Source: Xanthobacteraceae bacterium
GTDB lineage: Bacteria > Pseudomonadota > Alphaproteobacteria > Rhizobiales > Xanthobacteraceae
NCBI GenBank assembly: GCA_019635635.1
Contig: JAHBZB010000001.1
Coordinates: forward strand, 1,488,001-1,552,000
Direction of reading: 5' to 3'
Length of the DNA: 64,000 nucleotides
The notes beneath the pieces were generated by a model. That model searched no databases. It saw only the letters and a program-made list of their open reading frames with translations, and was not told where the DNA came from. Made by a program: the position numbers and the translations under genes. Positions 16,792-38,650 of this stretch are shown here, one piece after another. Positions within the stretch are counted from its first letter, which is position 1. Each line of letters begins with the position of its first letter.

Positions 16792-16811
16792 GTAGCTGCT
16801 TAAGCAACTAC
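16792..16811. promoter_or_regulatory. 20-bp palindromic operator, copy 1 (GTAGCTGCTT-AAGCAACTAC)
   Basis: The two 10-base arms match at nine of ten positions. The site lies between the divergent epimerase (start 16720) and isomerase-like gene (start 16848), and overlaps a possible -35 TTGACG at 16787-16792 for the rightward gene. It belongs to a family of four sites (with 20201, 25907 and 31130). Occupying the promoter spacer suggests repression of the isomerase-regulator operon, including the TrmB gene itself. Confidence 0.7.
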
Positions 16812-16847
16812 TCTTAGGCCGAACGAGCCCAACGAAAGAAGTCGCCA

Positions 16848-17657
16848 ATGCCCTATCCGCTCTCCATAAATACCTTCCCCTATCTCTGGAAGATGCCGGT
16901 CGATGCCTGCATCCGGCATCTGATGTCGCGCGGCTATGCCCGCGTCGAGGTCATGCTCACGGAGCCGCATTGCTGGCCTTTGAGCTTGCCGCGCGAAATC
17001 CGGCAGCAGATTGCGCAACGCGTCAAATCGAAGGAACTGGAAATCACCTCGATCAATCTGGGTGGCTTCGACAACAATCTCGCAAGTCAGGCCGCCGAAG
17101 TGCGGCAACTCGCCGTGAAGATCATCGCTTCCGTGCTCGAACTCGCGGGCGATTGGGGTGCGAAGGGTATCGTGGTTTCGCCGGGTCTCGGTAGGCCGCT
17201 GTTGCCGCCGCCCGCGGGACGGCTCGAGCAGGCATTCCGCAGCAGTATCGAACAGCTACTTCCGGTAGCGGAGAAGACCGGTGTCGATCTGCTGCTCGAA
17301 AATATTCCCTACAGCTTTGCTCCCAAAGCTGACGGACTGGCTTCGGTCATCGAATCCATCGGCAGCAAGCGGATTGGGGTCTGCTACGATGTGCCGAACG
17401 CACTGTTCGCGCGCGAAGCACCCGAAGACGGGTTCCGTCGTCTGGCGGGCCATATCCGGCTGGTCCATTTTTCCGATACGGGTCTCGACGTCTGGAAGCA
17501 TGACCGCATCGGTCAAGGCGTTGTGGATTTTGCAAGCGCACTCAAGGTCATGCGCGAAATCGGATATGGTGGCCCGCTCGTACTTGAAATCATTGATTCG
17601 GACGGCGACAATGCGATTGACGAAAGCGTCGCCGCCATTTCGAAGCTAGACAGTTGA
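16848..17657 (+). CDS. Sugar phosphate isomerase/epimerase family protein (xylose-isomerase-like TIM barrel)
   Basis: Protein of 269 residues with the AP-endonuclease-2/xylose-isomerase-like barrel. Metal-binding acidic and His positions are seen in LLLENIPYSF (Glu), RIGVCYDVPNAL (Asp), HIRLVHFSDT (His, Asp) and GPLVLEIIDSD (Glu). The family includes hydroxypyruvate isomerase, tagatose epimerase and inosose dehydratase-like enzymes. It begins 36 bases after palindrome copy 1 and is followed 24 bases later by the TrmB-type regulator, so the two form an operon. Substrate unknown. Confidence 0.82.
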   Translation: MPYPLSINTFPYLWKMPVDACIRHLMSRGYARVEVMLTEPHCWPLSLPREIRQQIAQRVKSKELEITSINLGGFDNNLASQAAEVRQLAVKIIASVLELAGDWGAKGIVVSPGLGRPLLPPPAGRLEQAFRSSIEQLLPVAEKTGVDLLLENIPYSFAPKADGLASVIESIGSKRIGVCYDVPNALFAREAPEDGFRRLAGHIRLVHFSDTGLDVWKHDRIGQGVVDFASALKVMREIGYGGPLVLEIIDSDGDNAIDESVAAISKLDS

Positions 17658-17681
17658 TGTCGCAAAGAGGCTTATTTCCAG

Positions 17682-18608
17682 ATGGCTAAAAAGCTCGTTG
17701 CGCGAAAAGGGCGCGAGAGTTCCTCGGACGTTTTCGACGATCTACAGCGTCTGGGATTTTCCGAATACGAGGCCCGGACCTATCTCGCACTTCTGCGTTC
17801 CAGCCCGGCTACGGCTTACGAAGTCAGCCGGGAGGCGGGGCTACCGCGCTCGAATACCTACAGCGCGCTGGAGAATCTGACCAAGAACATGGCCGTACAG
17901 CCGGTCTCGGAAAGTCCGGTACGATATGTTCCGGTCGAGCCCGCGGTTCTGCTCGGCCGCATGTCGCGCGAAGTCAAGGATGTCTGCGACCGGCTCAAGC
18001 TCAAACTTCGCACCGCAGCGAAGAAGGAAGAGTCGGACATCGTCTGGCGGCTCGAAGGCGCAGGGAACGTCGATGAGAAGATCAAGGAACTGATCGACGG
18101 CGCGCAACGCCACATCTGGATCAAGGCCGCCGCGGATATTCTTCAGGCGCATTCCAGCGAGTTGCGCCGCGCCGCCGCGCGCGGTGTCAGTATTCTGATC
18201 ATCCTGTTCGGCGACGATACCAAGCCGTTCGAGTTCAACCGCAACTGTCAGGTGTTTTTGCACGAAGGCAACGGCATGCGGATCGGCGTCGCCGACAACC
18301 TGTTCACGATCACGGTCGATTACAAGGCGGCGTTGACCGCAAGTCTCGCGGGCGATGTGGTGGGTGCGTTCACGCGCTCGGAACCGGTCGTCAGGATGGC
18401 GGAAACGCTGATCCGGCACGACTACTACATTACCGAAATCTTCAATCGTCTCGGCAAGCAGATCGACGCCGAGTTCGGGCCGTTTCTACAGTCTTTGCGC
18501 CGCCAGACTTTTTCCCCTGAACAGTTGTCGCTGTTCGAGAGGAACATCAAACATTTCGATGAGGCGAAGGCCTCGAAACCGCGCGGCTCGCCAAAGCGTT
18601 CCAAATAA
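17682..18608 (+). CDS. TrmB-family transcriptional regulator
   Basis: Regulator of 308 residues. Residues about 18-75 are the TrmB winged helix (LGFSEYEARTYLALL ... AYEVSREAGLPRSNTYSALENL). Residues from about 120 resemble the phospholipase-D-like effector domain of TrmB proteins (DGAQRHIWIKAAADIL). TrmB proteins, best studied in archaea, sense sugars and can repress or activate. It sits in the middle of a catabolic block whose promoters share a palindrome, including one in front of its own operon, so it is the leading candidate for the binding protein. The C terminus is Lys/Ser-rich. The effector is unknown. Confidence 0.85.
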   Translation: MAKKLVARKGRESSSDVFDDLQRLGFSEYEARTYLALLRSSPATAYEVSREAGLPRSNTYSALENLTKNMAVQPVSESPVRYVPVEPAVLLGRMSREVKDVCDRLKLKLRTAAKKEESDIVWRLEGAGNVDEKIKELIDGAQRHIWIKAAADILQAHSSELRRAAARGVSILIILFGDDTKPFEFNRNCQVFLHEGNGMRIGVADNLFTITVDYKAALTASLAGDVVGAFTRSEPVVRMAETLIRHDYYITEIFNRLGKQIDAEFGPFLQSLRRQTFSPEQLSLFERNIKHFDEAKASKPRGSPKRSK

Positions 18609-18620
18609 GGGCAAGCCTTT

Positions 18621-19385
18621 TCAGCCGGTGATCCGGATAAGATTGACGACGAATACGATGCAGGAAATGACGGCCAGCGTGCCCAAGGCGACGCGCTGGT
18701 AGAGCCGCTCCGGCGCGGCCCTGAAAAGACGCGCGCCGATCATGCCGCCGGCCAAAAATATCGGTGCGAGCAGCAATCCGCCGGTCAGTGCCTGCCGCTC
18801 CAGCAGCCCGAAGTAATACATCGAACCAACGGCCGCGATCAGGGCGGCGCCGGAAACCGTGATTACGTTTGCGCGCATTATTTCCGCCGATTCAGGGCCG
18901 GAAAGTATGTAAAGCATGAGCGGGGGGCCGCCCGCGCTGCCGAAGCCGGTCAATAGTCCGGAAAGAGAGCCGGCAAAGATTCGGCCGAACAATCCGCGTG
19001 GAAAGCGGACGGTGCCGCCTGCAATCATCCAGAACGCCATGCAAACGACCGCGAGGCTGATGAGCAGATTGCTGAGCGAAGGGTTCAGAAACGTCAGCGC
19101 CGCATGACCGGCGGGAATGGCGGCGCTCGCAGATGCCGCCAGCGGAATCAGCATGCGCATATTCGTGTGCCGCACGGCCGGTACGACCAGCAGTAGTGTC
19201 GCGAAGCACTCGAGAAGCGTCGCGATCGTCACGGCGATCGCCGGGCCGACCATGATTCCGAGGATGGGGACGACGAGCAGCGAAGAGCCGAAGCCCGAGA
19301 ATCCGCGAAGGATCCCGGCGATGAGCACGAGCGCCCCAATCGCAATCCAGGCAAACGGCGAGCCTGCAAGATTGATTGCGTTCAT
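18621..19385 (-). CDS. TauE/SafE-family anion exporter
   Basis: Integral membrane protein of 254 residues from the ATG at 19385, two bases after the stop of the SDR gene. The family repeats are visible: GFSGFGSSLLVVPILGIMVGP near the N terminus and GSLSGLLTGFGSAGGPPLMLY in the second half. Members export sulfite, sulfoacetate or related organic anions produced during sulfonate degradation, though many have unknown substrates. Its placement with a catabolic SDR downstream of palindrome copy 2 suggests export of a pathway anion. A larger open frame upstream is out of register with the family and was not used. Confidence 0.87.
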   Translation of the reverse strand: MNAINLAGSPFAWIAIGALVLIAGILRGFSGFGSSLLVVPILGIMVGPAIAVTIATLLECFATLLLVVPAVRHTNMRMLIPLAASASAAIPAGHAALTFLNPSLSNLLISLAVVCMAFWMIAGGTVRFPRGLFGRIFAGSLSGLLTGFGSAGGPPLMLYILSGPESAEIMRANVITVSGAALIAAVGSMYYFGLLERQALTGGLLLAPIFLAGGMIGARLFRAAPERLYQRVALGTLAVISCIVFVVNLIRITG

Positions 19386-19387
19386 GT

Positions 19388-20158
19388 TCACGCCGGCAGC
19401 GAGCGATGAATTACTCCAGCGCCGGCAAATCCTCCGTCGATCGCAAGGGTGTGCCCGGTGACATAGCTCGCTTCGCTGGAAGCAAGGAACAGCGCGCCAG
19501 CTGCGATTTCTTCGATTTTCCCGTAGCGGTTCATGGGGACGTCCGCGCAGAGCGCGCGACGGATTTCCTGCGGCTGCCAGGCCGTCATCGGTGTGTCGGT
19601 CGGGCCGGGAGCAATCGCATTCACGGTTATCCCATAAGGGGCCAGTTCGATTGCCATGGTCTGCGCGAGGTTGATCGTCGCCGCTTTCGACGCGGCATAG
19701 GCCGCGCGGTCGACTGCGCCGCGAAATCCGGTATTCGATGCGATCAGGATGATGCGGCCGGATTTTTTCCGGACCATCGTGCGGGCGACGGCCTGTGCGA
19801 CGAGGAACGTGCCGGTCAGGTTCACGTCGATGATGCGCCGCCAGTCGGCGGCCGGCGTTTCGAGAAACGGCATCAGCTTGTTTATTGCAGCGCAATGCAC
19901 GAGGACGTCGATGCCGTCTGTTCCGGCAAAGCGCTCCACATTCTGTTGGACGCTCGCCTCATCGGCGGAGTCGATCCGGTAAGCGGCCGCTTTTGCGCCG
20001 GTGGCCTGGATTTCTTCCGCAGCTGCGGCCGCCGATTTTTCGTCGATATCCGCAACTGCGAGAGTTGCTTGCTGCTTTGCAAAAGCAAGCGCGATCCCGC
20101 GGCCAATGCCGCGTCCGCCGCCCGTCACCAGCACTTTTCTTCCGGAAAAACTGTTCAT
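19388..20158 (-). CDS. SDR-family oxidoreductase
   Basis: Classical short-chain dehydrogenase of 256 residues. The cofactor motif is TGGGRGIGRGIA (12-23), followed by Asp38 in VADID, which favours NAD over NADP. The catalytic residues are Ser141, Tyr154 and Lys158 (YAASK). It is the promoter-proximal gene of a two-gene operon with the TauE-type exporter, divergent from the TPP-enzyme operon across palindrome copy 2. It probably oxidises an alcohol group of the substrate. Full length, unlike the SDR remnant at 12446. Confidence 0.9.
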   Translation of the reverse strand: MNSFSGRKVLVTGGGRGIGRGIALAFAKQQATLAVADIDEKSAAAAAEEIQATGAKAAAYRIDSADEASVQQNVERFAGTDGIDVLVHCAAINKLMPFLETPAADWRRIIDVNLTGTFLVAQAVARTMVRKKSGRIILIASNTGFRGAVDRAAYAASKAATINLAQTMAIELAPYGITVNAIAPGPTDTPMTAWQPQEIRRALCADVPMNRYGKIEEIAAGALFLASSEASYVTGHTLAIDGGFAGAGVIHRSLPA

Positions 20159-20200
20159 TTACTGTCCCCAGCGTCACGCGCGAGCAACGCTATCACGAAA

Positions 20201-20220
20201 GTAGTTGCTCTAGCTACGAC
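20201..20220. promoter_or_regulatory. 20-bp palindromic operator, copy 2 (GTAGTTGCTC-TAGCTACGAC)
   Basis: The arms match at seven of ten positions, the least symmetric copy of the set; the outer CTAC is CGAC here. It is centred in the 106-base gap between the divergent SDR (start 20158) and TPP enzyme (start 20265). A possible -35 TTGCTC lies inside it at 20205-20210, with TAATCC 17 bases further on as a -10 for the rightward operon. It would control both directions. Confidence 0.6.
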
Positions 20221-20264
20221 GTTTGTGTAATCCAAAAGCAACCGAATAAGGAGCGGGCTGAGAA

Positions 20265-22034
20265 ATGGCGTTCATGAAGGGAAGCGAGTTCATCGTCGAT
20301 TTTCTGATCCGCGAGAAAGTACCTTACGTTTTCGGCATCTGCGGTCACGGCAATGTCGGCCTGCTCGACGCGATGTACGACCGGCAGGACGAACTCAAGC
20401 TGGTTTCGCCTCGCCACGAACAGGCGGCGGGCCATATGGCCGACGCGTACTATCGCGTCACGCATAAGCCGGTCGCGACGCTGGCTTCGATCGGGCCGGG
20501 CTCCGTCAACATGCTGATGTCGCTCGCCAACGCATTCATGGATTCCTCGGCGATCCTGTCGATCACCTCCGCGACGCCGACGGTGCAGGCCAATCGCTCG
20601 CCGTTCCAGGAAATAGGCCGCCACAATCAGGCGGATTTCGCGCAAAGCATTCAGTCTTACGTCAAGCGTTGTTACCAGCCGCAGCGGGTCGAAAATCTTC
20701 CGCTCGCTTTGCGGCAGGCCTATTCGCTGACTACGACCGGGCGGCCCGGACCGGTCGCGATCGATATTCCGTTCGATCTGTTTCAGGAAACCGGCGATCT
20801 CGACTACGAGCCGGTGCAGACTAGGGCAATTTCGAGCCGGATCGGCGCCTCGTCGGAGGTCGTGAACGAAACGGTCGATCTGCTCACCAACGCGCAACGC
20901 CCGGTCATCTATACCGGCAACGGTACCGTGCTTTCGGAGGCGGGGCCGGAACTGACGGCACTGGTCGATCGTCTCGGCATTCCCGTCGTCAGCCTGCCGA
21001 ACGGCATGGGCGGCCTCGACATGCGCCATGAACTGTCGCTCGGGTTCGTCGGGCGCAACGGCGCTTATCCCGCGAACGAGGCCGCGCGCCAGAGCGACGT
21101 CATTCTCAATCTCGGCGCGCGTTTCGACGATCGCTCGTCGTCGTCCTGGATCCCTGGCTATTCGTGGAATATTCCGCCGAGCAAGCTGATCCATGTCGAT
21201 ATCGACCCGCTCGAAATCGGCCGCAACTATCCGGTCGCGATCGGAGTCGCCGCCGACGTCAAGACTTTCCTCGCACAAGTGCTTGCTGAACTCGAGCGGC
21301 GCAAGGTCAAGCAGCGTCCCGAAGCGTGGCTCGCGCAGATCGCGCAGTGGCGCGCGGAGTGGGAAAAATTCGTCCGTCCCAACTTCGACATATCGAGTTC
21401 GCCGTTGCGCCCGGAGCGGATCGTCAAGGAAATGCGGCAGATCCTCCCCGACGACGCGATCCTGCTTCCCGACGTCGGTGCACACCACAACTGGTTCATG
21501 CAGTTCTGGGAAGCGCGCCGACCGCAGACCTTCCTGAATGCATACGGCTTCGGCGCGATGGGCTTCAGTGTTGCCGGCGTGCTCGGCGCGAAGCTCGCTG
21601 CGCCGGATCGTCCCTGCATCAGCGTTTGCGGCGACGGCGGTTTCACGATGGCGCCTTATGTGCTGGCGACCGCCGTCGAATACAACATTCCGGCGATCTG
21701 GGTAATCTGGAACAACTTCGGTTGGGCTTCGATCCGCGACATTCAGGTCGGCATGTTCCAGGGCCGCGAGATCGGTACGCTCTTCTATCGCGACGGCGAA
21801 CGCTACAATCCCGACTTCGCGGCGATGGCGCGTTCCTACGGCGTCGAAGGCATCACCGTGAAACATTCCGATCAACTCGGCGATGCGCTGAAGCATGCGC
21901 TTCAGCTCGGCAAACCCTGCGTGCTCGACGTGCATGTGGACAGCGAGATCCGTCCGCCATCGACCGGCGCCTGGCAGCTTCCGCCCACGCCGTACCGTGA
22001 ACCCGCCTATGGCAAGCGTTATCTTCCGGAGTAA
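20265..22034 (+). CDS. Thiamine-pyrophosphate-dependent enzyme, acetolactate-synthase-like
   Basis: ThDP enzyme of 589 residues with the three usual domains. The catalytic Glu that activates the cofactor is Glu52 (SPRHEQAAGHMADAY), and the ThDP/Mg motif runs from GDGGF at 456 to Asn at 483-484 (NNFGW). The family covers acetolactate synthase, 2-hydroxyacyl-CoA lyase, oxalyl-CoA decarboxylase and others. The next genes encode CoA-ester enzymes, so a CoA-ester lyase or decarboxylase is as plausible as an acetolactate synthase. No small regulatory ilvN-like subunit is nearby, and the operon is catabolic, which argues against valine synthesis. First gene of a six-gene operon. Confidence 0.85.
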   Translation: MAFMKGSEFIVDFLIREKVPYVFGICGHGNVGLLDAMYDRQDELKLVSPRHEQAAGHMADAYYRVTHKPVATLASIGPGSVNMLMSLANAFMDSSAILSITSATPTVQANRSPFQEIGRHNQADFAQSIQSYVKRCYQPQRVENLPLALRQAYSLTTTGRPGPVAIDIPFDLFQETGDLDYEPVQTRAISSRIGASSEVVNETVDLLTNAQRPVIYTGNGTVLSEAGPELTALVDRLGIPVVSLPNGMGGLDMRHELSLGFVGRNGAYPANEAARQSDVILNLGARFDDRSSSSWIPGYSWNIPPSKLIHVDIDPLEIGRNYPVAIGVAADVKTFLAQVLAELERRKVKQRPEAWLAQIAQWRAEWEKFVRPNFDISSSPLRPERIVKEMRQILPDDAILLPDVGAHHNWFMQFWEARRPQTFLNAYGFGAMGFSVAGVLGAKLAAPDRPCISVCGDGGFTMAPYVLATAVEYNIPAIWVIWNNFGWASIRDIQVGMFQGREIGTLFYRDGERYNPDFAAMARSYGVEGITVKHSDQLGDALKHALQLGKPCVLDVHVDSEIRPPSTGAWQLPPTPYREPAYGKRYLPE

Positions 22035-22040
22035 GCGACC

Positions 22041-22841
22041 ATGAGTGATCCAGTTCTGTTCGAGCGCAACGGCGACATCGTCACCCTGACGCTCAATCGT
22101 CCGGAGACGCGCAACGCTCTGACGGCGGAAGTCGTCGATGCGCTGGTCGCTGCCTGCGGCCGCATCGCCTACGACCACACGGTTCGCGCCGTGATCGTGA
22201 CGGGCGCGGGCCCCGCATTCTGCGCCGGCGGCAGCGTGAAGGACATGAAAGAGCGCGGCGGCCTGTTCGGTGGCAGCCCCGCCGAAATGCGCAACCGCTA
22301 TCGCACCGGTATTCAGCAGATTCCGCTCGCGCTCTACGATCTCGAGGCGCCGACAATCGCCGCGGTGAACGGTCCTGCGATCGGCGCGGGCTGTGATCTC
22401 GCGCTGATGTGCGATGTCCGTATCGCGTCGGACAAAGCGGTATTCGCCGAAAGCTTCGTGAAGCTCGGCATCATTCCCGGAGACGGCGGCGCTTGGCTGT
22501 TACAGCGTATCGTCGGCACTTCGCGCGCCTGCGAAATGTCCTTCACCGGAATGTCGGTGGATGCGGCAAAAGCGGTCGAATGGAATCTCGCTTCGCGTTC
22601 GGTGCCAGCGGCGGATCTCATGGCGGAAGCCGGAAAACTCGCCGCCGAAATCGCGTCCAATCCGCCGGAAGTGCTGCGCATGACCAAACGGCTGATCCGT
22701 GAAGGCGCGCGGACCGATCTGCGCACGACGCTGGAAATGTCCGCGGCGTTCCAGGCGATCGTACAGCATCTGCCCGACCATCGCGAAGCCGTGGCGGCTT
22801 TGTTCGAAAAAAGAGCCGGCAAGTTCACCGGCGAACGCTAA
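22041..22841 (+). CDS. Enoyl-CoA hydratase/isomerase (crotonase) family protein
   Basis: Crotonase-fold protein of 266 residues, the normal length. The first oxyanion-hole region is AFCAGGSVKDMKERGG, and the second is PAIGAGCDLALMCDVRIAS followed by KLGIIPGDGGAWLL. The exact acid/base residues differ among subfamilies and cannot be fixed here. It begins six bases after the TPP-enzyme stop, so it is in the same operon with two hotdog proteins and a CoA ligase. It would hydrate, isomerise or hydrolyse the CoA ester formed in this pathway. Confidence 0.9.
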   Translation: MSDPVLFERNGDIVTLTLNRPETRNALTAEVVDALVAACGRIAYDHTVRAVIVTGAGPAFCAGGSVKDMKERGGLFGGSPAEMRNRYRTGIQQIPLALYDLEAPTIAAVNGPAIGAGCDLALMCDVRIASDKAVFAESFVKLGIIPGDGGAWLLQRIVGTSRACEMSFTGMSVDAAKAVEWNLASRSVPAADLMAEAGKLAAEIASNPPEVLRMTKRLIREGARTDLRTTLEMSAAFQAIVQHLPDHREAVAALFEKRAGKFTGER

Positions 22842-22855
22842 GCAGGAGAGTAAAA

Positions 22856-23317
22856 GTGGCGGTCAAAATCGTCGAAAACAGTGCAATGGATCTGAAAGTC
22901 GGGGACGAACAGGCGCCGCTCGTCTTCACCGTGACGCCTGAACTCAACCAGCAATATCTCTACGCCGTTGAGGACTATCACCCGCGCTACCTCGAAAAAG
23001 GCGCGTGGGGCGACCCGATCATTCATCCCTCGATCCTGATGAATATGTCGAACCGCACGCGCAGCCCGTCGTTCAAGCTGCCGGCAGGCTGGAGTTCGAT
23101 CCACGCGCGCGACGACACCGAGTTTCATTCGGCGGCGCGCGTCGGCGAGACGATCACCGTACAGTGGAAAGTCGTCGAATGTTACGAGCGCAAGGAGCGG
23201 CCTTATCAGGCGCTCGAGGTGCGCATCACCCGTCCGAACGGCGAACTGGCGCTGCGCCGTATCGCACATTCGACGGTATCGCGGCAGGAAAAAGCCGTTA
23301 CCGGCAAATCTTCGTAA
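22856..23317 (+). CDS. MaoC-like hotdog-fold protein, degenerate hydratase motif
   Basis: Protein of 153 residues starting at GTG 22856 behind a strong AGGAGAG ribosome-binding site. The hydratase-motif region reads EDYHPRY, where the usual D-x-N-P-x-H has His at the Asn position and Tyr at the catalytic His position, so the subunit may be structural rather than catalytic. The adjacent gene encodes a second hotdog protein with a more complete motif. Pairs of one degenerate and one active MaoC subunit are known (HadAB and ChsH1-ChsH2 in actinobacteria), which suggests a heteromeric enoyl-CoA hydratase. Confidence 0.75.
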   Translation: MAVKIVENSAMDLKVGDEQAPLVFTVTPELNQQYLYAVEDYHPRYLEKGAWGDPIIHPSILMNMSNRTRSPSFKLPAGWSSIHARDDTEFHSAARVGETITVQWKVVECYERKERPYQALEVRITRPNGELALRRIAHSTVSRQEKAVTGKSS

Positions 23318-23343
23318 CCGGCAGCGTAGCAGAGGGTACAAAA

Positions 23344-23775
23344 ATGATCGAGCAAGACGTCGCAGTTGGCGCAGCTTTCCAGGGGGGCGGAAAGAAAATC
23401 ACCGCAGCCCGCCTGATCACGTTCTCCGGCGGACCGCTGACGGATGCCGGCTGGCCGCGCAAGAATATTCACACCGATACGGACTTTGCGAAATCGACGG
23501 GCCTGCCGTCGCGTTGCGCGTCCGGCACGCATTTTCAGGGGCAGATGGTCGAGTTCATGGTCGATCTGTTCGGAGAGCGCTGGTTCGAGACCGGCAGCAT
23601 GAACGTAAAGTTCGTCGATCTCGTGCTCGAAGACCAGATCGTTACGGCGCATGCGAAGGTCGTCGATAAGAAGCCGGATGCCAAGAAAGGCACGCGCATC
23701 GAGCTCGAAGTCTGGAGCGAGCGCAACGACGGCCGCAAGGTGATGACCGGCACCGCAGCCGGCGTGGTGGGCTGA
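23344..23775 (+). CDS. MaoC-like hotdog-fold dehydratase subunit
   Basis: Protein of 143 residues from the ATG at 23344. The hydratase motif is well kept: KNIHTDTDFAKSTG (Asn41, His43, Asp45), followed by a glycine-rich turn CASGTHFQGQM corresponding to the helix start of MaoC proteins. It probably hydrates an enoyl-CoA or dehydrates a 3-hydroxyacyl-CoA, together with the preceding hotdog protein. An open frame extends upstream to 23005 but overlaps the preceding gene and was rejected. Next gene is ten bases downstream. Confidence 0.78.
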   Translation: MIEQDVAVGAAFQGGGKKITAARLITFSGGPLTDAGWPRKNIHTDTDFAKSTGLPSRCASGTHFQGQMVEFMVDLFGERWFETGSMNVKFVDLVLEDQIVTAHAKVVDKKPDAKKGTRIELEVWSERNDGRKVMTGTAAGVVG

Positions 23776-23784
23776 TCGTTTCAG

Positions 23785-24996
23785 ATGATCCGTCTCACCG
23801 AAGAGAAAACCAAGGCGTGGCTTGCGGCGCGTGGATTGCCGGTGCCGAAAGGCGCGGTGGCGAATACGCCCGACGAAGCCGCGGCCGTTGTCGATCGCTT
23901 CGGTGGCGGCGTCATCAAGGCGCTGGTCGCGACCGGCCGGCGCGGCAAGGCGGGCGCGGTGAAGGTCGTCGCGAACGCCGCAGAGGCAAAGCCCGCGGCC
24001 GCGAGCGTTCTCGCAGTACAGATCGGCGAACATTCCGTCGAGCGTCTCTACGTCGAAAGCAAAGTCTCGATCGACAAGGAATTTTATCTTGCCTTCGCTT
24101 TTGACGGGCGCTCGCCGTCGGTCGTTGCCAGCATCAATGGCGGCGTCGACATCGAGGAAGTACACCGTCAATCGCCGGAATCGATCATCCATCGTCCAAT
24201 CGATTCGGTGACCGGCATTCGCTTCTGGGAAGCGCTGGATCTGTGGCAGTCCGCCAAGGCGCCGAACGAGAACCTCGCCTCACTGGCGAAGATCACGGTG
24301 GAGCTTTGGCAGGCATTCCGGGGCGCGGACGCGCTGACCCTTGAACTCAATCCGCTCGCGGTCACCGTCGACAAGAAAGTGTCGTTGGTCGGCGCGATGA
24401 TGGGTATCGACGACAACGCGTTGTTTCGGCAGCCGCAATGGCAGGCGGAGAGCGGCGAGCAGACAATCGGCGGCCGCAAACAGACCAGGGGCGAGCTTAC
24501 AGTTGCGGAGGCGAACCGCACGCTTCCCGGCGGGGCCGTGCGGTACACGGAACTTGAAGGCAATATCGGCCTGCTGGTCGGCGGCGGCGGCGCGTCGCTG
24601 CTGGTGCACGACATGATTCTAGCCCGCGGTGGCAAGCCTGCGAACCATACGGATTCGAGCCCCGGACCGATCACCGAGAAACTCAAGGTGATGCTGCGCG
24701 AGATCCTCACGCGGCCGAACATGGCGGGCCTGCTGATCGCGTATAACCACCTGCAAATGGCCCGCTGCGACGTGAAAATCGAAGCGTTGGCCGACGCGCT
24801 GCGCAAAACCGGCGTCGATCCACGCAAATTTCCAATCGTCGTTCGTCTGGCCGGTCCCGCGGAGGCGCGGGCACGTGAACTCGCGGCGGAATTTCCCGGC
24901 ATTCAATACCTCGATGACGACGCGTCGCTCGACGATGCCGTGCGCCTCATTGTCGAAAAAGCCGGGAAGGGCGGGCTTCGAGAGGCGAGCGCATGA
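23785..24996 (+). CDS. ATP-grasp acid-CoA ligase beta subunit (SucC/MtkA-like)
   Basis: Protein of 403 residues related to the beta subunit of succinyl-CoA synthetase. The N-terminal ATP-grasp part begins IRLTEEKTKAWLAARGLPVP and has VIKALVATGRRGKAGAVKV. The nucleotide/metal region is LTLELNPLAV, with the Glu and Asn that bind magnesium. The C-terminal CoA-ligase domain has IGLLVGGGGASLLVHDMI and a hinge region. It overlaps the alpha-subunit gene by four bases (ATGA at 24993). The substrate is probably a carboxylic acid other than succinate, since the operon is catabolic and apart from the TCA genes; malate (as in MtkAB) is one possibility. Confidence 0.85.
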   Translation: MIRLTEEKTKAWLAARGLPVPKGAVANTPDEAAAVVDRFGGGVIKALVATGRRGKAGAVKVVANAAEAKPAAASVLAVQIGEHSVERLYVESKVSIDKEFYLAFAFDGRSPSVVASINGGVDIEEVHRQSPESIIHRPIDSVTGIRFWEALDLWQSAKAPNENLASLAKITVELWQAFRGADALTLELNPLAVTVDKKVSLVGAMMGIDDNALFRQPQWQAESGEQTIGGRKQTRGELTVAEANRTLPGGAVRYTELEGNIGLLVGGGGASLLVHDMILARGGKPANHTDSSPGPITEKLKVMLREILTRPNMAGLLIAYNHLQMARCDVKIEALADALRKTGVDPRKFPIVVRLAGPAEARARELAAEFPGIQYLDDDASLDDAVRLIVEKAGKGGLREASA

Positions 24997-25910
24997 GCAT
25001 TCTGATCAATTCGTCCACGCGCGTGCTCGTGCAGGGCATTACCGGTTTTCAGGGGCGAATGGATACCGAGTTCAGCCTCGCTTACGGTACCAAGATCGTA
25101 TGTGGCGTCACGCCGGGTCGCGCCGGCGAGATTGTCCACGGCGTTCCGACCTTCAATACCGTACGCGCTGCGATCGGACGGCATCCGGCGGACGCCAGCA
25201 TTCTCTATGTGCCGGCGCCTGCGTTACGCGACGCGGCACTCGAGGCGATGGAGGCCGGCATCAAGCTTCTGGTCGCGACCACGGAAAACGTGCCGCGCCA
25301 CGACGCCTCGCTGATCGTTGCGGAAGCACAGAAGCGCGGCGTGAAGATCGTGGGCTTCAATACCAACGGCATTATTACGCCGGGCGAATGCAAGCTCGCA
25401 GGCATCGGCGGCGACAAGCCGGAGCGGATTTATTGGCCGGGACGGATCGGTGTCTGCTCGCGCTCGGGCGGTATGTCCGCGGAAATTTCCTGGACGCTGA
25501 AAAAGGCCGGCCTCGGCGTTTCTACCTGCGTGTCGATGGGTGGCGATCCGATCACCGGTCTGATGATGGCGGACTATCTGCGCCTGTTCGAAGCGGATCC
25601 GGAAACCGACGCGATGGTGGTGTTCGGCGAACCCGGTTCGGGGCACGAGCAGGGCGTCGCCAATGCGGTCGCTTCCGGAGAAATCCGCAAGCCAGTGTTC
25701 GCGCTGATCGCAGGCGTTTTTCAGGAAAACTATCCGCGTGGCGTCAGCTTCGGTCATGTCGCGGCAATGATCGCCGATGAGGCCGATACCGCGACGGCAA
25801 AACGAAAAATGCTCGCGAAGGCCGGAGTAACGGTCGTTTCCGGTCTTGATGAACTGGCGGCAAGCGTAAGGCAGATCATGCAAGCGCCTGCTGCAATGCG
25901 GAAAGCGTAG
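24993..25910 (+). CDS. Acid-CoA ligase alpha subunit (SucD/MtkB-like)
   Basis: Protein of 305 residues, close to the usual SucD length. The CoA-binding Rossmann motif is VQGITGFQGRMDT (13-25), then NTNGIITPGECKL and GVCSRSGGMSAEISW. The phosphorylated active-site histidine is probably His255 in SFGHVAAMIADEADT, which replaces the usual GHAGAI...GKGTA pattern. Retention of His255 argues for an active ligase. Its stop codon lies inside palindrome copy 3, so the TRAP-transporter promoter begins at the end of this gene. Confidence 0.85.
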   Translation: MSILINSSTRVLVQGITGFQGRMDTEFSLAYGTKIVCGVTPGRAGEIVHGVPTFNTVRAAIGRHPADASILYVPAPALRDAALEAMEAGIKLLVATTENVPRHDASLIVAEAQKRGVKIVGFNTNGIITPGECKLAGIGGDKPERIYWPGRIGVCSRSGGMSAEISWTLKKAGLGVSTCVSMGGDPITGLMMADYLRLFEADPETDAMVVFGEPGSGHEQGVANAVASGEIRKPVFALIAGVFQENYPRGVSFGHVAAMIADEADTATAKRKMLAKAGVTVVSGLDELAASVRQIMQAPAAMRKA

Positions 25911-25926
25911 TAGTAATTACAACTAC
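25907..25926. promoter_or_regulatory. 20-bp palindromic operator, copy 3 (GTAGTAGTAA-TTACAACTAC)
   Basis: The arms match at nine of ten positions. The site overlaps the stop codon of the CoA-ligase alpha gene and ends five bases before a good -35 hexamer at 25932. A site just upstream of the -35 is typical for activation, in contrast with copy 1. Confidence 0.7.
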
Positions 25927-25931
25927 TTTTC

Positions 25932-25960
25932 TTGACGAAGGAATACGGTTCGGTAAAGAT
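25932..25960 (+). promoter_or_regulatory. Predicted sigma-70 promoter for the TRAP operon
   Basis: TTGACG at 25932-25937, a 17-base spacer, and AAAGAT at 25955-25960. It lies 57 bases before the dctP-like start and directly downstream of palindrome copy 3. GGAGG at 26008-26012 provides the ribosome-binding site. Confidence 0.5.
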
Positions 25961-26017
25961 CGACAACAGTTCGTAAGCTCCAGCAAGAGAGCGCGAGCGA
26001 CTTCCAGGGAGGAAAAC

Positions 26018-27229
26018 ATGGACGAGAAGAAATTGTTTGGCCCGCATCAGACGCGGCGTCAGTTTATGTCGCTCGCAAGCCGCTTCGGCGGGTCCGCTGC
26101 GACGCTCGCATGGTTCGGTGCACCGCTTGGCGTATCTTTGCTCGAAGTAACGAAGGCTTACGCGCAGACCGAAGCCGAGAAGAAGAGCAAAGCCGACCAC
26201 ATCATCTTGACCGGCATCACCGAAAATCCGAAGCGCTGGCCCAACGGCAAGCTTTCGACCGAGCAGTCGAATCTTACTGGCGTGATCCAGTGGAAAGAAA
26301 ACATCGAGAAGCACACCAACGGTAAGGTGTATGTCGATCTCCAGTACGGCGGCTCGCTCGGCAATCAGATCGACATGCCGAAGAAGTTGCAGCAGGGAAC
26401 GCTACAGGGCGCGCACGGCTCAACACAGAACGCCGCCGCCTCGGCTTCGGTCTGGAACGTCATCGATTTCCCGTATCACGTCGGCCCGGTGGAGAACTTC
26501 TGGCGCCTCGTTTTCTCAAAGGAATTCAATGACGTCGTGCGCAAGAAATCCGAGCAACAAGGGCTCGTGATGACCGTTATTTTCCCGCAGGTCCGGTGGA
26601 TGGAATACCGCAAGGGACTCGGCCGGGAAGTTCGACGTCCGGAAGATATCAAGGGCCTGAAGATTCGCGTTACCGGCTCCAAGCTGGAGCAGACCGCGTT
26701 CCGCATTCTGCCCGCGAACCCGACGCCGGTTGCGTGGGGCGAGACCTACAATGCGCTCAAGGAAGGCGCGGTCGACGGCCTTCATGTTGGTCCCGGCCCG
26801 ATTGCCGACGTGAATATCTCGGAGGTGATCGGTCAGCTCGTGGACACCGAGTTCATGTACAATTCGGACGCGATGTATCTCTCGGCGCGCTGGTACCGGG
26901 CGTTGCCGGCGGCGATCCAGGAGCAGATCATGGAAGCCTGCTACGACACACAGGTGTTCCAGCACAAAGTCTACGAATCTTATCTTCGCGACCAGTGGGG
27001 AATCCGTGCCGACTCGCCGCCGGATTCGATCTGGCAGAAACTCAAGCCACAGTTCATCTACCTCAACACGCAGGAACTGGACGCCTGGAAGGAATATCTT
27101 TCCTACGGCCGCAACAAGGCGATCTACGATCCGCTGATCGCGCAGTTCGGCAAAAAGGAATACGAAACGACCGGGAAGGTTGCGAACGAGAAGTCTCCGG
27201 TCTCGCCGCGCCGCTGGTGGAAGGCCTAA
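26018..27229 (+). CDS. TRAP transporter substrate-binding protein (DctP type), Tat-exported
   Basis: Periplasmic binding protein of 403 residues for a TRAP importer. The N terminus holds a twin-arginine signal (TRRQFMSLAS, then a hydrophobic stretch ending KAYAQT), so it is exported folded. The mature part has the DctP layout: KVYVDLQYGGSLGNQIDM, KGLKIRVTGSKLEQ with the carboxylate-binding Arg, and WGETYNALKEGAVDGLHV. Ligands of this family are usually carboxylates or sulfonates. The binding protein is followed by both membrane subunits. Tat export is common for TRAP proteins that need cofactors or rapid folding. Confidence 0.92.
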   Translation: MDEKKLFGPHQTRRQFMSLASRFGGSAATLAWFGAPLGVSLLEVTKAYAQTEAEKKSKADHIILTGITENPKRWPNGKLSTEQSNLTGVIQWKENIEKHTNGKVYVDLQYGGSLGNQIDMPKKLQQGTLQGAHGSTQNAAASASVWNVIDFPYHVGPVENFWRLVFSKEFNDVVRKKSEQQGLVMTVIFPQVRWMEYRKGLGREVRRPEDIKGLKIRVTGSKLEQTAFRILPANPTPVAWGETYNALKEGAVDGLHVGPGPIADVNISEVIGQLVDTEFMYNSDAMYLSARWYRALPAAIQEQIMEACYDTQVFQHKVYESYLRDQWGIRADSPPDSIWQKLKPQFIYLNTQELDAWKEYLSYGRNKAIYDPLIAQFGKKEYETTGKVANEKSPVSPRRWWKA

Positions 27230-27302
27230 ATCTACCGGCCGCGGCACGACAATAGATCGCGCCGCGGCCGATCCCATCACCGCACGCCCCAGAGGTTCAG
27301 CA

Positions 27303-27866
27303 GTGAGTGCGCCATCCAAAAATTCGATTGAACCGGGCGAGCGATCGCTGTTGCGAAGAGTTGTGAGCTGGCTCGACGAATATGTCGAGTTCTACATCAA
27401 CTTCTTCCTGTATTCGCTTTTGACGGTCGTTATCGTCGTCGAAGTGTTTCGCCGCTACATGCTTGATTCCGCCACTTCGTATGGCGAAGAGGTCGCCAGA
27501 TATGCATTTATCTGGCTCGCCTATTTCGCGGCTGCGCGCGGCGTGAAGAACCGCTCCCATCTGTCGATCGACTTGTTGCGGGATATGTGCAGCCGCAACG
27601 TGAAGTTCGTTCTGTTTTTGCTGAGCGATCTTTGCTTCTTCGTGCTGTCGTTGATCATTATTTATACCGGGTCTCGGTTTGTGATCACGACGATCGAGTT
27701 CGAACAGAGCTTCACCGGCATCAATCTTCCGCTCTGGCTCGCGGTCGGAGCGATACCGGTCGGGTGGAGCATGATCGCAATTCGCGTCGTGCAGCGAACA
27801 ATCAAGACGGTTCAGGCTTTCCGCCGCGGCGAGCCGATGGTGTCTGGCTTTATCGGAGCGGGCTAA
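27303..27866 (+). CDS. TRAP transporter small permease (DctQ type)
   Basis: Membrane protein of 187 residues with four hydrophobic segments (YVEFYINFFLYSLLTVVIVV; EEVARYAFIWLAYFAAARG; VKFVLFLLSDLCFFVL; and a last helix before the C terminus). This is the DctQ pattern, including the conserved ARYAFIWL and the H in RSHLSIDLL. The start is the GTG at 27303; the open frame from 27180 runs back into the binding-protein gene. Two bases after its stop region the large permease begins, so they are coupled. Confidence 0.9.
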   Translation: MSAPSKNSIEPGERSLLRRVVSWLDEYVEFYINFFLYSLLTVVIVVEVFRRYMLDSATSYGEEVARYAFIWLAYFAAARGVKNRSHLSIDLLRDMCSRNVKFVLFLLSDLCFFVLSLIIIYTGSRFVITTIEFEQSFTGINLPLWLAVGAIPVGWSMIAIRVVQRTIKTVQAFRRGEPMVSGFIGAG

Positions 27867-27867
27867 G

Positions 27868-29151
27868 ATGGACCTCTATACAACGATTGCCCTGCTCGGC
27901 ACGGCAGTACTGCTTCTGCTCGGCGTGGAAATCGTGGTGTGCCTGGGCTTGGGCGCGGTATTTTTCGTACTCACCCAGAAGCACTTCGCGATGGACAACA
28001 TCGGAATTGCCACCTTTTCGGAAATCAATCTTTTTCCGTTGCTGGCGATGCCGCTTTATATTCTCACCGGCGACCTGATTGCGCATTCGGGAATCGCGGC
28101 GCGACTCATAGAATTTTCGCGGGCCTTGATCGGCTGGGCGCGCGGAGGAATGGCACTCACGCTGCTCGTTGCCTGCGGCTTCTTCGCGGCGATCAGCGGA
28201 TCGAACGCGGCGACCGTTGCTGCAATGGGGCGGATGATGCTCGGGCCGATGGAGCGCGACGGATATCCACGCGACTACGCGGCCGCTGTCGCAGCTTGCG
28301 GAGGAACGGTGGGCATCATTATTCCGCCGAGCATTGTCTTCGTGATCTACGGCGTCGCATCGGGAACGTCGATCGGCGATCTGTTCGTCGCGGGTATCAT
28401 CCCCGGAATCATCATGGTTGCAGCAATGGCGATCGTGGCGACGATTACCTGCCGGCGCCGGAACATCGGAACGACCATACCCTTCAAATTCAGCGAGGTG
28501 GCTCGTACCGGTCTGCGCGCGAATCTCGCGTTCGGTGCCACCGCGGTGATCCTGGGCGGTATCTACGGCGGCATTTTCACGCCGACCGAAGCCGCGGCGG
28601 TAGCTGTCGCCTACTGTCTCATCGTGGGTCTGTTTCTAACACGTGAGATCAAGTTGCGGGACTTGCCCCGCATCGCCAATACCAGTGCCGATGTCGCCGG
28701 GCTGGTCGCGCCGATCATCGCGCTCGCGGTTGCGTTGTCGCAAATTCTATCCGTGTTGGGTCTTCCCAAGGCTGGCGTCGATGCTCTGCTTGGGCTGTCT
28801 TCGGAGCCGGTCGTGATCATGCTGGTCGTGCTGGTGATCCTGCTCATCGCGGGAATGCTCATGGAAACCACTCCCAACGTCATTCTGCTTACTCCGCTGC
28901 TGGCTCCGGTCGGCGCGCAGCTCGGCTACGATCCAATTCACTTCGGCGTAATCTTCGTGGTGACGCTTGCGATCGGTTTTGTGACGCCGCCATTAGGCTT
29001 GAACCTGTTCGTGGCAAGCTCCATCGCGCGCGTGCCGGTAATGACGATTGCATGGCGTTCGGCGTGGATGATCGTGGGCTTGCTTGTCGCGATGTTGCTG
29101 GTGACGTTCGTGCCGTGGTTCTCGCTCGCTTTCCTGACGCGCGCTTCCTAA
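27868..29151 (+). CDS. dctM: TRAP transporter large permease (DctM type)
   Basis: Sodium-coupled transport subunit of 427 residues with about a dozen hydrophobic segments. Family landmarks: a glycine-rich SGSNAATVAAMGRMM loop after FFAAISG, the GGTVGIIIPPSIVFVIYG motif near residue 145, GIFTPTEAAAVAVAYCL in the second half, and GFVTPPLGLNLFV near the end. With the binding protein and the small permease it completes a TRAP importer. Its 3' end lies inside a perfect hairpin shared with the convergent dehalogenase-like gene. Confidence 0.95.
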   Translation: MDLYTTIALLGTAVLLLLGVEIVVCLGLGAVFFVLTQKHFAMDNIGIATFSEINLFPLLAMPLYILTGDLIAHSGIAARLIEFSRALIGWARGGMALTLLVACGFFAAISGSNAATVAAMGRMMLGPMERDGYPRDYAAAVAACGGTVGIIIPPSIVFVIYGVASGTSIGDLFVAGIIPGIIMVAAMAIVATITCRRRNIGTTIPFKFSEVARTGLRANLAFGATAVILGGIYGGIFTPTEAAAVAVAYCLIVGLFLTREIKLRDLPRIANTSADVAGLVAPIIALAVALSQILSVLGLPKAGVDALLGLSSEPVVIMLVVLVILLIAGMLMETTPNVILLTPLLAPVGAQLGYDPIHFGVIFVVTLAIGFVTPPLGLNLFVASSIARVPVMTIAWRSAWMIVGLLVAMLLVTFVPWFSLAFLTRAS

Positions 29152-29161
29152 GCGCGTCAGG
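29133..29161. terminator. Perfect 10-bp hairpin spanning two convergent stop codons
   Basis: CCTGACGCGC at 29133-29142 pairs exactly with GCGCGTCAGG at 29152-29161 around a nine-base loop. It contains the stop codon of the TRAP large permease and the last codons of the convergent hydrolase. It reads the same from both strands, so it could end transcription in both directions, although the T run after it is poor. Confidence 0.55.
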
Positions 29162-30038
29162 ATTTCGAGAACCAGTTCAACAACGCGCCGGAGACCTCCG
29201 ACGGCGATTCCTCCGCAATGAAGTGGCCGCCCGGCACGGCGACGCCTTCGACGATGTCGGCTTGCGTGCGCCAATACTCCACCGGATCGAAGCGGGGGCC
29301 AAATTTGCTAGACGTTCCCCAGATGGAAAGTACCGGGCATCGGATGCGGCCGGCGGGCGGAGTAAGGGTGTCGGCAGTGACGCCGGCACGATAATCTTCG
29401 CAGGTTGCGTGGATTGTTTCGGGCCTCGCGAAGGTCCTGAGATATTCCGCAAATATTTCTTCGCTCATCCATCCGGGCGTAGCGGCCCAGGATTCCAGCG
29501 TCCAGCGCAGGAAGAACGCCGGATCGTTGCCGATCAGCCGTTCCGGCAAGTTGTAAGGCTGGGATAAAAAGAACCAGTGATAGGTGTCCTGCCCGAAGCA
29601 CGCATCGACCTTGCGAAACATTTCCGGCTCTAGCGTCATCGGGATGATGTCGAGCACGGCGATGCGCTTTAGCCGTTCGGGGAAATCCTGCGCGAGCCGC
29701 TGCACGACCCGACCGCCGCGATCGTGCCCGGCGGCCGAGAATTCGCGATGGCCGAGCGATTCCATCACGGTGGCCATGTCGGCGGCCATCTGCCGCTTGC
29801 TGTAGTTGACATGATTGACGCCGCCGTCCGGCTTTGTGCTTTCGCCGTAGCCGCGCAGATCTGCGGCAACGACGGTGAATTTCTCCGCGAGCTTCGGCGC
29901 GACCTTGTGCCAGCACAGGTGCGTCTGCGGATAGCCGTGCAACAGTAGCACCGGCGGGCCAGATCCTCCGACGACGGCGTGTATCGTGCAGCCTTCGACC
30001 TCCACATCGACGCTTCGGAAGCCGGGGAAGAAATTCAT
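29157..30038 (-). CDS. Haloacetate (fluoroacetate) dehalogenase-like alpha/beta hydrolase
   Basis: Alpha/beta hydrolase of 293 residues. It has the nucleophile Asp106 in GHDRGGR with Arg107 and Arg110, the catalytic acid Asp130 in AVLDIIP, and the base His272 in GGHFIAEE. It also has the halide pocket His154-Trp155 (TYHWFFL) and Tyr216 (CEDYRAG). These match, position for position, the residues known in fluoroacetate dehalogenase of Rhodopseudomonas (Asp110, Arg111, Arg114, Asp134, His155, Trp156, Tyr219, His280). Such enzymes hydrolyse the carbon-halogen bond of haloacetates to give glycolate. Epoxide hydrolase is less likely, since the fluoride-binding trio is present. Its start overlaps the stop of the alcohol dehydrogenase gene by one base. 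Confidence 0.85.
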   Translation of the reverse strand: MNFFPGFRSVDVEVEGCTIHAVVGGSGPPVLLLHGYPQTHLCWHKVAPKLAEKFTVVAADLRGYGESTKPDGGVNHVNYSKRQMAADMATVMESLGHREFSAAGHDRGGRVVQRLAQDFPERLKRIAVLDIIPMTLEPEMFRKVDACFGQDTYHWFFLSQPYNLPERLIGNDPAFFLRWTLESWAATPGWMSEEIFAEYLRTFARPETIHATCEDYRAGVTADTLTPPAGRIRCPVLSIWGTSSKFGPRFDPVEYWRTQADIVEGVAVPGGHFIAEESPSEVSGALLNWFSKS

Positions 30039-31066
30039 CAGACCTGTTCCTTCGGGGAGATTAAGATTTTCAGGTGCCGCGCTGGATTATTCCGAAGATC
30101 GGAAAAAGCGTCCGCGAATTTCGTCAGCGGATATGTCGCGGTAATCATCCGCGCCGCGTCGATCTTGCCGCCTTCGAGCAAGGCAATCGAGGCGGTGAAG
30201 TCTTCGCGCGCGTAATTGCGCGATACGATCACGTCGAGCTCTTTGCGATAGACTTTGGGATAGGGCAGCGTCACGGGGTCCGACCCGTGCGGGAAGGCGA
30301 GCATGACGAGCGTGCCGCGCGTGCGTAACCCGTCGACCGCCGCGGCGAGGGTCGCCGGAGCCCCGACATTGTCGAATACAATGTCGAACTCGCCGTATTG
30401 CGCGAGTGTGCGGGCAAGATTCCCGTCCGAAAGCACGAACTGATCGAAACCGAGCGCGCGGCAGGTCTCGGCCCGTTCCGGGAGCCGATCTACCACCGCG
30501 ACATAGCCCGCACCGGCAGCTTTCGCGGCCTGCGCGATCAGGAGACCGATCGAGCCGGCGCCAATCACTGCGATACGCTGTCCCGATTTCAACGCCGAGC
30601 GCCGGATCGCATGCGTAGCCACGGCGGTGGGTTCGATCAGTGCGCCTGCATCGTTCCTGAGCGTTGCGGGAACGGCGAGTAACCGATCTTCGGGTACGAC
30701 CATGAATTCGGCGAAGCAACCGCCGTCGCGATGAACGCCCTGCACGCGGAACGTGGCGCAGTGGTTGTCCTCCTTTCGCGCGCAAGCGTTGCAATGGCCG
30801 CAGCCTTGTGTTGGATAAATCGTCACCCAATCGCCCTTGGCGAAAGCCGGCGCCGCGGCGGCCGGCTCTTCGACGGTCGCAATCAATTCGTGGCCGGGCG
30901 TCATCGGATAAATCGCGACCGGGCTCTCACCTTTGATCGTCGTGATATCGGTCGCGCAGATGCCGGCGCGATGGATCCGAAGAACGACATCGCGGTCGCC
31001 GCGCTCAGGCAAGGGGCGCTCTGTGACGGAAAAGCGGTTTGGGGCTTCCAGCAGCAAGGCATGCAT
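30038..31066 (-). CDS. Zinc-dependent medium-chain alcohol dehydrogenase
   Basis: MDR-family dehydrogenase of 342 residues from the ATG at 31066, which has GGAG-AAGGAAA upstream. The catalytic zinc ligands are in GICATDIT and GHEL, the structural zinc cysteines in GCGHCNACARKEDNHC, and the NAD-binding motif is GAGSIGLLIAQAAKAAG. This is the pattern of polyol/threonine-type dehydrogenases (sorbitol, idonate, galactitol). It is the first gene of a two-gene operon with the dehalogenase-like hydrolase, divergent from the ABM-YeiH-ALDH operon across palindrome copy 4. Confidence 0.9.
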   Translation of the reverse strand: MHALLLEAPNRFSVTERPLPERGDRDVVLRIHRAGICATDITTIKGESPVAIYPMTPGHELIATVEEPAAAAPAFAKGDWVTIYPTQGCGHCNACARKEDNHCATFRVQGVHRDGGCFAEFMVVPEDRLLAVPATLRNDAGALIEPTAVATHAIRRSALKSGQRIAVIGAGSIGLLIAQAAKAAGAGYVAVVDRLPERAETCRALGFDQFVLSDGNLARTLAQYGEFDIVFDNVGAPATLAAAVDGLRTRGTLVMLAFPHGSDPVTLPYPKVYRKELDVIVSRNYAREDFTASIALLEGGKIDAARMITATYPLTKFADAFSDLRNNPARHLKILISPKEQV

Positions 31067-31129
31067 TTTTGCGTTTCCTTCTCCACGCGCGATGCTAGCC
31101 CCCGGCTGGACAGACTTCAAGAAAGAGTG

Positions 31130-31149
31130 GTAGCTATAGCAGCTACTAC
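31130..31149. promoter_or_regulatory. 20-bp palindromic operator, copy 4 (GTAGCTATAG-CAGCTACTAC)
   Basis: The outer four bases on each side are exact (GTAG/CTAC), and the arms match at about half of all positions. It lies between the alcohol dehydrogenase (start 31066) and the ABM gene (start 31169), nine bases upstream of a possible leftward -35 TTGAAG (31115-31120, minus strand) and 20 bases before the ABM start codon. The position could couple both operons to the regulator. Confidence 0.55.
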
Positions 31150-31168: not shown

Positions 31169-31456
31169 ATGTCCGCCTTTGCGATCGTCGCAACGCACCA
31201 TTTGAAGCAAGGCAAGCGGGAAGCCTGGGCCGCCCTGGCGGCGATCAACGCCGTCGAGGCGCGGAAGGAGCAGGGCTGTTTACAGTTCGACGTCGTGCTG
31301 CCGCGCGATCGCCCGGACATGGGAATTCTGATCGAGCGTTACGTAGACGAGGCGGCGTGGAACTGGCATTTCGAGCAGTCGTACTGCAGGGATTTCATGC
31401 AGGCCATCGAGACAATGCTCGTTGATCGCACGCGCGTTCTCTGCGACGCCGTTTAA
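31169..31456 (+). CDS. ABM-domain (YgiN-like) monooxygenase family protein
   Basis: Small protein of 95 residues with the antibiotic-biosynthesis-monooxygenase fold: FAIVATHHLKQGKREAW, then CLQFDVVLPRDRPDMGILIERYVDEAAWNWH. The ferredoxin-like fold dimerises, and members include cofactor-free quinol monooxygenases and small isomerases. It starts 20 bases after palindrome copy 4 and heads the ABM-YeiH-ALDH-ABM-reductase operon. A second ABM protein is encoded at 33993. A role in oxidising or isomerising a pathway intermediate is inferred from context only. Confidence 0.8.
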   Translation: MSAFAIVATHHLKQGKREAWAALAAINAVEARKEQGCLQFDVVLPRDRPDMGILIERYVDEAAWNWHFEQSYCRDFMQAIETMLVDRTRVLCDAV

Positions 31457-31474
31457 GCAAAGGAAGATTTCGAC

Positions 31475-32512: not shown

Positions 32513-32538
32513 AGCCGCTGCTGCGTGGAGTTACCCGG

Positions 32539-33981: not shown

Positions 33982-33992
33982 CGTTGCCGGAG

Positions 33993-37482: not shown

Positions 37483-37522
37483 GGCTGCTCCTCGCTCGAG
37501 ACTATTGTTGCTTCGTGTCCGG

Positions 37523-38491: not shown

Positions 38492-38579
38492 CGTTCTCTC
38501 CCTCTGTCTGCACACTTATGTGCGTGCTTGGGTGCATGAGGGCACAAGGGACGGAGCATCAAAAAAAGAATATTCCGCT

Positions 38580-38596: not shown

Positions 38597-38650
38597 GTTG
38601 CTAATTGCTTGTGGCTTCGTCAGAATTGGCCTGTTTGAGGCGTGTTCGCG

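Follow-up and report, generated by a model that had tools for sequence, protein, structure and literature searches.

TrmB regulators are known mainly from archaea and have hardly been studied in proteobacteria. According to PMC9426492, the family makes up 0.5% of the transcription factors of bacteria and 12% of those of archaea. As described in a review (PMC4158304), the TrmB proteins of P. furiosus and Thermococcus litoralis bind a palindromic operator, TACT-N3-AGTA, at promoters; Tyr50 of P. furiosus TrmB is important for DNA binding, and its sugar contacts lie mainly at residues 305-326, in the second effector subdomain. The same review reports that TrmBL1 retains two of the seven sugar contacts, thus the contacts in this subdomain are not required family-wide, and that TrmBL1/Tgr of the Thermococcales and VNG1451C of Halobacterium act as repressors or activators depending on the position of the site. 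This study concerns a TrmB-family regulator gene (17682-18608) and four 20-bp palindromes in a 64,000-nucleotide stretch of DNA (hereafter, the window) from the Xanthobacteraceae bacterium GCA_019635635.1 (contig JAHBZB010000001.1, positions 1,488,001-1,552,000 of the forward strand). The four palindromes are highly likely to be the operators of this regulator, which would control one catabolic block, its own operon included, with repression as the default.

The regulator shares with the P. furiosus and T. litoralis proteins a winged helix-turn-helix (HTH) with the DNA-recognition tyrosine, the helix that follows, and the first part of the effector domain, and its predicted operators are likewise palindromes at promoters. 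However, the predicted operator is different and longer, no counterpart of the subdomain that mainly binds sugars was detected, and the associated genes are of acyl-coenzyme A (CoA) and carboxylate-type catabolism. TrmBL1/Tgr and VNG1451C belong to the same DNA-binding family but have the operators TATCAC-N5-GTGATA and TACT-N7-8-GAGTA at archaeal promoters (PMC4158304). No operator for a proteobacterial TrmB was found in the open-access literature searched, most subscription papers lying outside the scope of that search.

The pattern GTAG-N12-CTAC occurs on the plus strand of the window at 16792, 25907, and 31130, where 0.10 occurrences are expected from the dinucleotide-shuffled window, and a near-palindrome ending in CGAC, copy 2, lies at 20201-20220 (GTAGTTGCTCTAGCTACGAC). 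These positions, together with the nine of ten symmetric arm positions in copies 1 and 3, agree with the original prediction. The palindrome of copy 4 is also real, but its predicted coordinates, 31130-31149, were off by 3 bp: in that register, the symmetry is 5/10 and the matrix score is 15.1, whereas the 20-mer 3 bp to the left (31127-31146, GTGGTAGCTATAGCAGCTAC) has a symmetry of 7/10, scores 26.2, and is in register with the other copies. The aligned copies (GTAGCTGCTTAAGCAACTAC, GTAGTTGCTCTAGCTACGAC, GTAGTAGTAATTACAACTAC, and GTGGTAGCTATAGCAGCTAC for copies 1 to 4) yield the consensus GTAGTWGCWNNWGCWACTAC. A site matrix built from these four sites alone scored them at 25.7-27.1, and in a leave-one-out analysis each site ranked fourth among all 20-mers of the window, directly after the three sites from which the matrix was built. 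The palindromes are real and not a product of chance.

We then used pattern searches to look for further sites in the source genome (3,369,323 bases in four contigs), with matrix scores given for single places. GTAGN12CTAC was found at 12 places, three of them inside the block; the nine outside scored from -5.8 to 7.6, well short of the block sites, and one of these was a 9/10 palindrome with other inner bases (score 4.9). At the density observed outside, the probability of at least three occurrences in 14.4 kb is 9e-6. When up to three mismatches to GTAGNNGCTNNAGCNACTAC were allowed, places with zero or one mismatch lay in the block only, and two 3-mismatch places outside it scored 14.4 and 15.2. 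Allowing up to two mismatches to GTWGYWGYWNNWRCWRCWAC on the plus strand returned 23 places: copies 1 to 4, copy 4 again in its shifted register, and 18 further places that mostly resemble CAG/CTG repeats. Many unrelated copies elsewhere, an outcome that the original prediction had counted against itself, did not appear: these pattern searches of the 3.37-Mb genome returned no strong copy outside the block.

The gaps upstream of orthologous genes were compared as had been proposed, and sites were retained in two relatives that carry both the genes and the regulator. In a metagenome-assembled genome labelled Pseudorhodoplanes sinuspersici (G130), the gene order is kept to the contig end, and all three testable sites persist between spacers that have diverged; the TTGAC sequences beside copies 1 and 3 are kept as well. 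The cluster of the second relative (G077) is rearranged and carries sites at the promoters corresponding to copies 1, 2, and 4 and three more. It is extremely improbable that the palindromes are chance occurrences or repeat elements, such as terminator hairpins or mobile repeats, with no regulatory role. The sequence of copy 4 could fold into a hairpin with some T residues after it, but the sites are kept at promoters across genera despite the divergence of their flanks, are rare in the genome, and occur at far more loci than permuted matrices return (see below). The terminator or hairpin reading was rejected, copy 4 being the only terminator-like one of the four and the region containing 12 such sites versus 15.5 in shuffles.

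A sample of 391 genomes of the family contained a TrmB match at E 0.001 or better in 40 genomes, of which 14 had an orthologue (E <1e-70) and 26 had weak TrmB-like matches only. The results revealed that the exact pattern GTWGYWGYWNNWRCWRCWAC was present in 10 of the 14 genomes with the orthologue versus 6 of the 377 others (Fisher p 4e-13); those six matches are rich in GCAGC/GCTGC, with locus scores of 9.3-14.8. Homologues of the thiamine pyrophosphate (TPP) enzyme encoded after copy 2 were found at E 1e-150 in 121 of the 391 genomes, and 30 loci were examined. All three loci from TrmB-bearing genomes had sites scoring at least 22.9, and none of the 27 loci examined from genomes without the TrmB orthologue had a site (best score 11.1). 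At the sequence level, these comparisons demonstrate that the sites exist, that they are conserved, and that they depend on the regulator gene. A strong site also lies on a second contig (contig 79) of a TrmB-bearing genome (G295; L218:1408-1427), away from the regulator, and suggests a further regulator target.

For a wider set, a 13-sequence alignment was used as the query with one genome per species, and the best 80 of 435 relatives were used; these loci, from alpha-, beta-, and gammaproteobacteria, were thus chosen by TrmB homology, and the window brings the set to 81. With the four-site matrix, 66 of the 80 TrmB loci contained a site scoring at least 18 and 67 contained one scoring at least 16, whereas 100 permuted palindromic matrices gave a mean of 0.52 loci at 18 (maximum 5) and Markov-resampled loci gave 1. 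A predicted start lay within -120 to +400 bases of 118 of the 124 sites scoring at least 16 in the 81 loci; two sites were inside a conserved open reading frame, distant from any start, and 25 loci had a site near the start of trmB itself. The same pairing of regulator and predicted site recurs in many other proteobacteria, and 66 loci allow regulator, operator, and candidate target genes to be read together. Recurrent neighbours in the 81 loci were TctC (58), an ADP-forming acyl-CoA ligase (38), biotin carboxylase (37), carboxyltransferase (35), and an enolase-superfamily protein (30); apart from TrmB, which was selected for, no gene family occurred in more than 58 neighbourhoods.

These data also bear on whether the palindromes serve another regulator encoded elsewhere, with TrmB merely sharing the cluster. 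Other regulators do exist, for example, an IclR-type protein (38642-39451) whose gene is divergent from a Tct-type transporter operon (35357-38515) adjoining the block. This alternative is nevertheless very unlikely: the exact pattern tracks the presence of TrmB across the family genomes, the IclR-type protein had no tblastn match at 1e-10 in the 83 TrmB loci tested, and among the 67 site-bearing loci, 28 have TrmB (by selection) and a site but none of the four commonest enzyme families. No strong TrmB site was found at the Tct transporter genes.

The regulator belongs to the TrmB family by its predicted DNA-binding domain. The winged HTH profile PF01978 matched with an E value of 3.6e-20 and 72 bits (cut-off 25.6) over profile positions 1-67 of 68, and the effector-binding profile PF11495 matched with 32.5 bits (cut-off 22.2), but partially, over positions 2-71 of 233 only. 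The protein falls outside the NCBIfam orthologue groups, the TrmB, TrmBL1, haloarchaeal TrmB, and TrmBL2 equivalogs scoring 28.9-71.9 bits and not reaching their cut-offs of 500-650. Tyr60 of the recognition helix is invariant in 13 of 13 aligned orthologues and aligns with Tyr50 of P. furiosus TrmB. A structure model computed with 13 sequences as input (mean pLDDT 81, pTM 0.49) shows, in order, the winged HTH, a long helix, a phospholipase-D-like domain, and a helical C-terminus of long helices; the match of the model to 2f5t, a 233-residue chain, extends over 136 alignment columns. Foldseek placed TrmBL2 (5box and 5bpd) and TrmB on top among the PDB chains; because the whole-chain TM-scores are low (0.34-0.35 by query), the domain arrangement is unsure. 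The TrmBL2 structures are titled as an archaeal chromatin protein with a novel DNA-binding mode, whereas a few defined sites at promoters are found here. The archaeal sugar-contact subdomain was not detected, the profile match to P. furiosus TrmB (3qph) stopping at residue 163 of 342. Because the match ends there while the sugar contacts lie mainly at 305-326, the ligand is probably not a sugar.

Copy 1 fills the spacer of a predicted promoter with a -35-like TTGACG and a weak -10. Of 48 TTGAC sequences near sites, 17 lie 27-28 bases ahead of the first base of the operator, compared with an average of 0.36 per offset, and at this distance the -10 would abut the operator edge; 30 of the 48 have offsets of -34, -28/-27, -19, or -6/-5, positions that would bring the operator over or against the -10/start region or the spacer. 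Because this arrangement holds at copy 1 and at many sites of relatives with a visible -35, repression would be the default. The alternative that the sites are TrmB operators but the regulator is mainly an activator through sites upstream of the -35, with repression exceptional, is unlikely. It would suit copy 3, which lies upstream of a TTGAC at a distance kept in G130, and the review describes archaeal relatives as both repressing and activating by site position (PMC4158304), but 2 of the 48 TTGAC sequences have the copy-3 offset versus 30 at overlapping or touching offsets. The direction of control that had been proposed is corrected accordingly: repression fits copy 1 and many relatives, and activation at copy 3, which has as its basis only a TTGAC offset common to two genomes, those of the window and G130, is a possibility.

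Most probably, the regulator is a repressor of the TrmB family whose action is lifted by a metabolite of the pathway. A dimer would contact the half-sites of GTAGTWGC-N4-GCWACTAC through its two recognition helices and hold the promoters of the block (approximately 12771-35335), including that of its own operon, in a repressed state. A small molecule of the pathway binding the phospholipase-D-like effector half would lift the repression; genes for CoA ligases, hydratases, and carboxylate transport are found repeatedly next to the sites, so this ligand may be a carboxylate or its CoA ester. Copy 3, upstream of its likely -35, may act positively. We tentatively propose, although with less than even confidence, that the proteobacterial proteins form a TrmB branch in which the helical C-terminus replaces the archaeal sugar-binding half and senses a carboxylate or acyl-CoA, that the regulator and the GTAGTWGC palindrome form a portable module placed before unrelated catabolic clusters in alpha-, beta-, and gammaproteobacteria, and that one branch has changed in both recognition helix and operator. 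With an operator defined, 66 loci to compare, and the sugar-binding subdomain apparently missing, the operator code, ligand, and control direction of a bacterial TrmB branch can be tested directly, and poorly annotated acyl-CoA catabolic clusters become accessible through their regulon.

Several observations weigh against these readings. The canonical pattern is missing from 4 of the 14 orthologue genomes (G164, G354, G357, and G375), whose recognition helix reads PKAN instead of PRxN (G354 taken as L148). No site scoring at least 16 was found in 13 of the 80 loci, and short contigs account for some, not all, of them: L132, L136, L161, and L168 are contigs of 3-5 kb, L135, L137, L141, and L148 belong to the PKAN branch, and L158, L160, L165, and L180, together with L185, are unexplained, L165 also having the helix Lys. 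At least four Arg-type loci longer than 5 kb are siteless (L136, with 5060 bases, L158, L160, and L180). Lys replaces Arg56 in eight loci, five of which lack a site scoring at least 16; the others score 17.1 (L164), 18.3 (L162), and 24.2 (L157), the last being a strong canonical site with a Lys-type helix. Covariation of helix and operator was not adopted but is retained as a lead, the loss being mostly on one branch, with two independent pairs in the tree and no statistical support. The loci are phylogenetically related and partly shared with the family-sample genomes, so the locus counts are not independent events; the TPP-enzyme homologues are 54-63% identical and need not head the same operon in the 30 loci examined; and the gene starts around the sites were predicted mechanically. 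Most of the -28/-27 cases represent a single promoter shared by relatives, and at the strictness used, a sigma-70 scan placed no promoter at the sites (3 predictions versus 3.9 in shuffles), so the promoter placement rests on the conserved TTGAC and on flank conservation.

Among the PKAN orthologues, L083, L137, L162, and L164 have GTAGTAT...ATACTAC-like palindromes of differing spacing, which replace or weakly resemble the canonical site. A blind palindrome search of the loci without a canonical site returned no common second motif. A distant TrmB (28% identity) has the palindrome AGTAGTCATATTTTGACTACT approximately 190 bp before its gene (L090:9382-9402), with the same outer GTAGT and different inner bases.

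The block is larger than the 19 kb first given for it, counting the closely spaced genes that run left from copy 1; its features are listed in Table 1. The regulator was not found in seven other genomes of the genus searched, which argues that the block is accessory. A genomic island was rejected, the G+C content being 0.606 in the block versus 0.607 in the rest of the window, and no tRNA being present anywhere in the window.

Table 1. Predicted operators and genes of the catabolic block (window positions)
Feature	Position	Strand	Remark
Unknown 399-residue protein	12771-13970	-	Last of the leftward genes from copy 1
Flavin adenine dinucleotide (FAD) oxidoreductase	13977-15143	-	
Glutathione S-transferase (GST)-like protein	15153-15755	-	
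Epimerase	15770-16720	-	
Predicted operator copy 1	16792-16811		Between leftward operon (epimerase, GST-like, FAD oxidoreductase, unknown) and TIM-barrel/TrmB operon; identical in G130, flanks diverged
Xylose-isomerase-like TIM-barrel protein	16848-17657	+	First gene of the regulator's operon
TrmB-family regulator, 308 residues	17682-18608	+	Winged HTH, phospholipase-D-like effector half, helical C-terminus
TauE-type exporter	18621-19385	-	
Short-chain dehydrogenase/reductase (SDR)	19388-20158	-	
Predicted operator copy 2	20201-20220		Between SDR/TauE (-) and TPP-enzyme/CoA-ligase operon (+); identical in G130; G077 site upstream of TPP gene
TPP enzyme, crotonase, two hotdog hydratase-like proteins, two-subunit ADP-forming CoA ligase	20265-25910	+	
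Predicted operator copy 3	25907-25926		Overlaps end of CoA-ligase alpha gene, ahead of TRAP transporter genes; upstream of conserved TTGAC
Tripartite ATP-independent periplasmic (TRAP) transporter DctP-DctQ-DctM	26018-29151	+	
Alpha/beta hydrolase	29157-30038	-	
Zinc alcohol dehydrogenase	30038-31066	-	
Predicted operator copy 4	31127-31146 (corrected)		Between dehydrogenase/hydrolase (-) and ABM-YeiH-aldehyde dehydrogenase-ABM-PRISE (+); G077 site between same two genes
ABM protein, YeiH-type exporter, aldehyde dehydrogenase, ABM protein, PRISE-like reductase	31178-35335	+	

The TauE- and YeiH-type exporters hint at a sulfonate pathway, as does the aldehyde dehydrogenase, which matches SafD in part, but among the NCBIfam matches listed, cut-offs were reached only by a crotonase subfamily and a TRAP subfamily, and no sulfonate pathway is claimed. 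The 399-residue protein had no Pfam match at 0.001 and no NCBIfam match at 1e-30, and is 75% identical to its counterpart in G130 over the 210 residues present on that contig.

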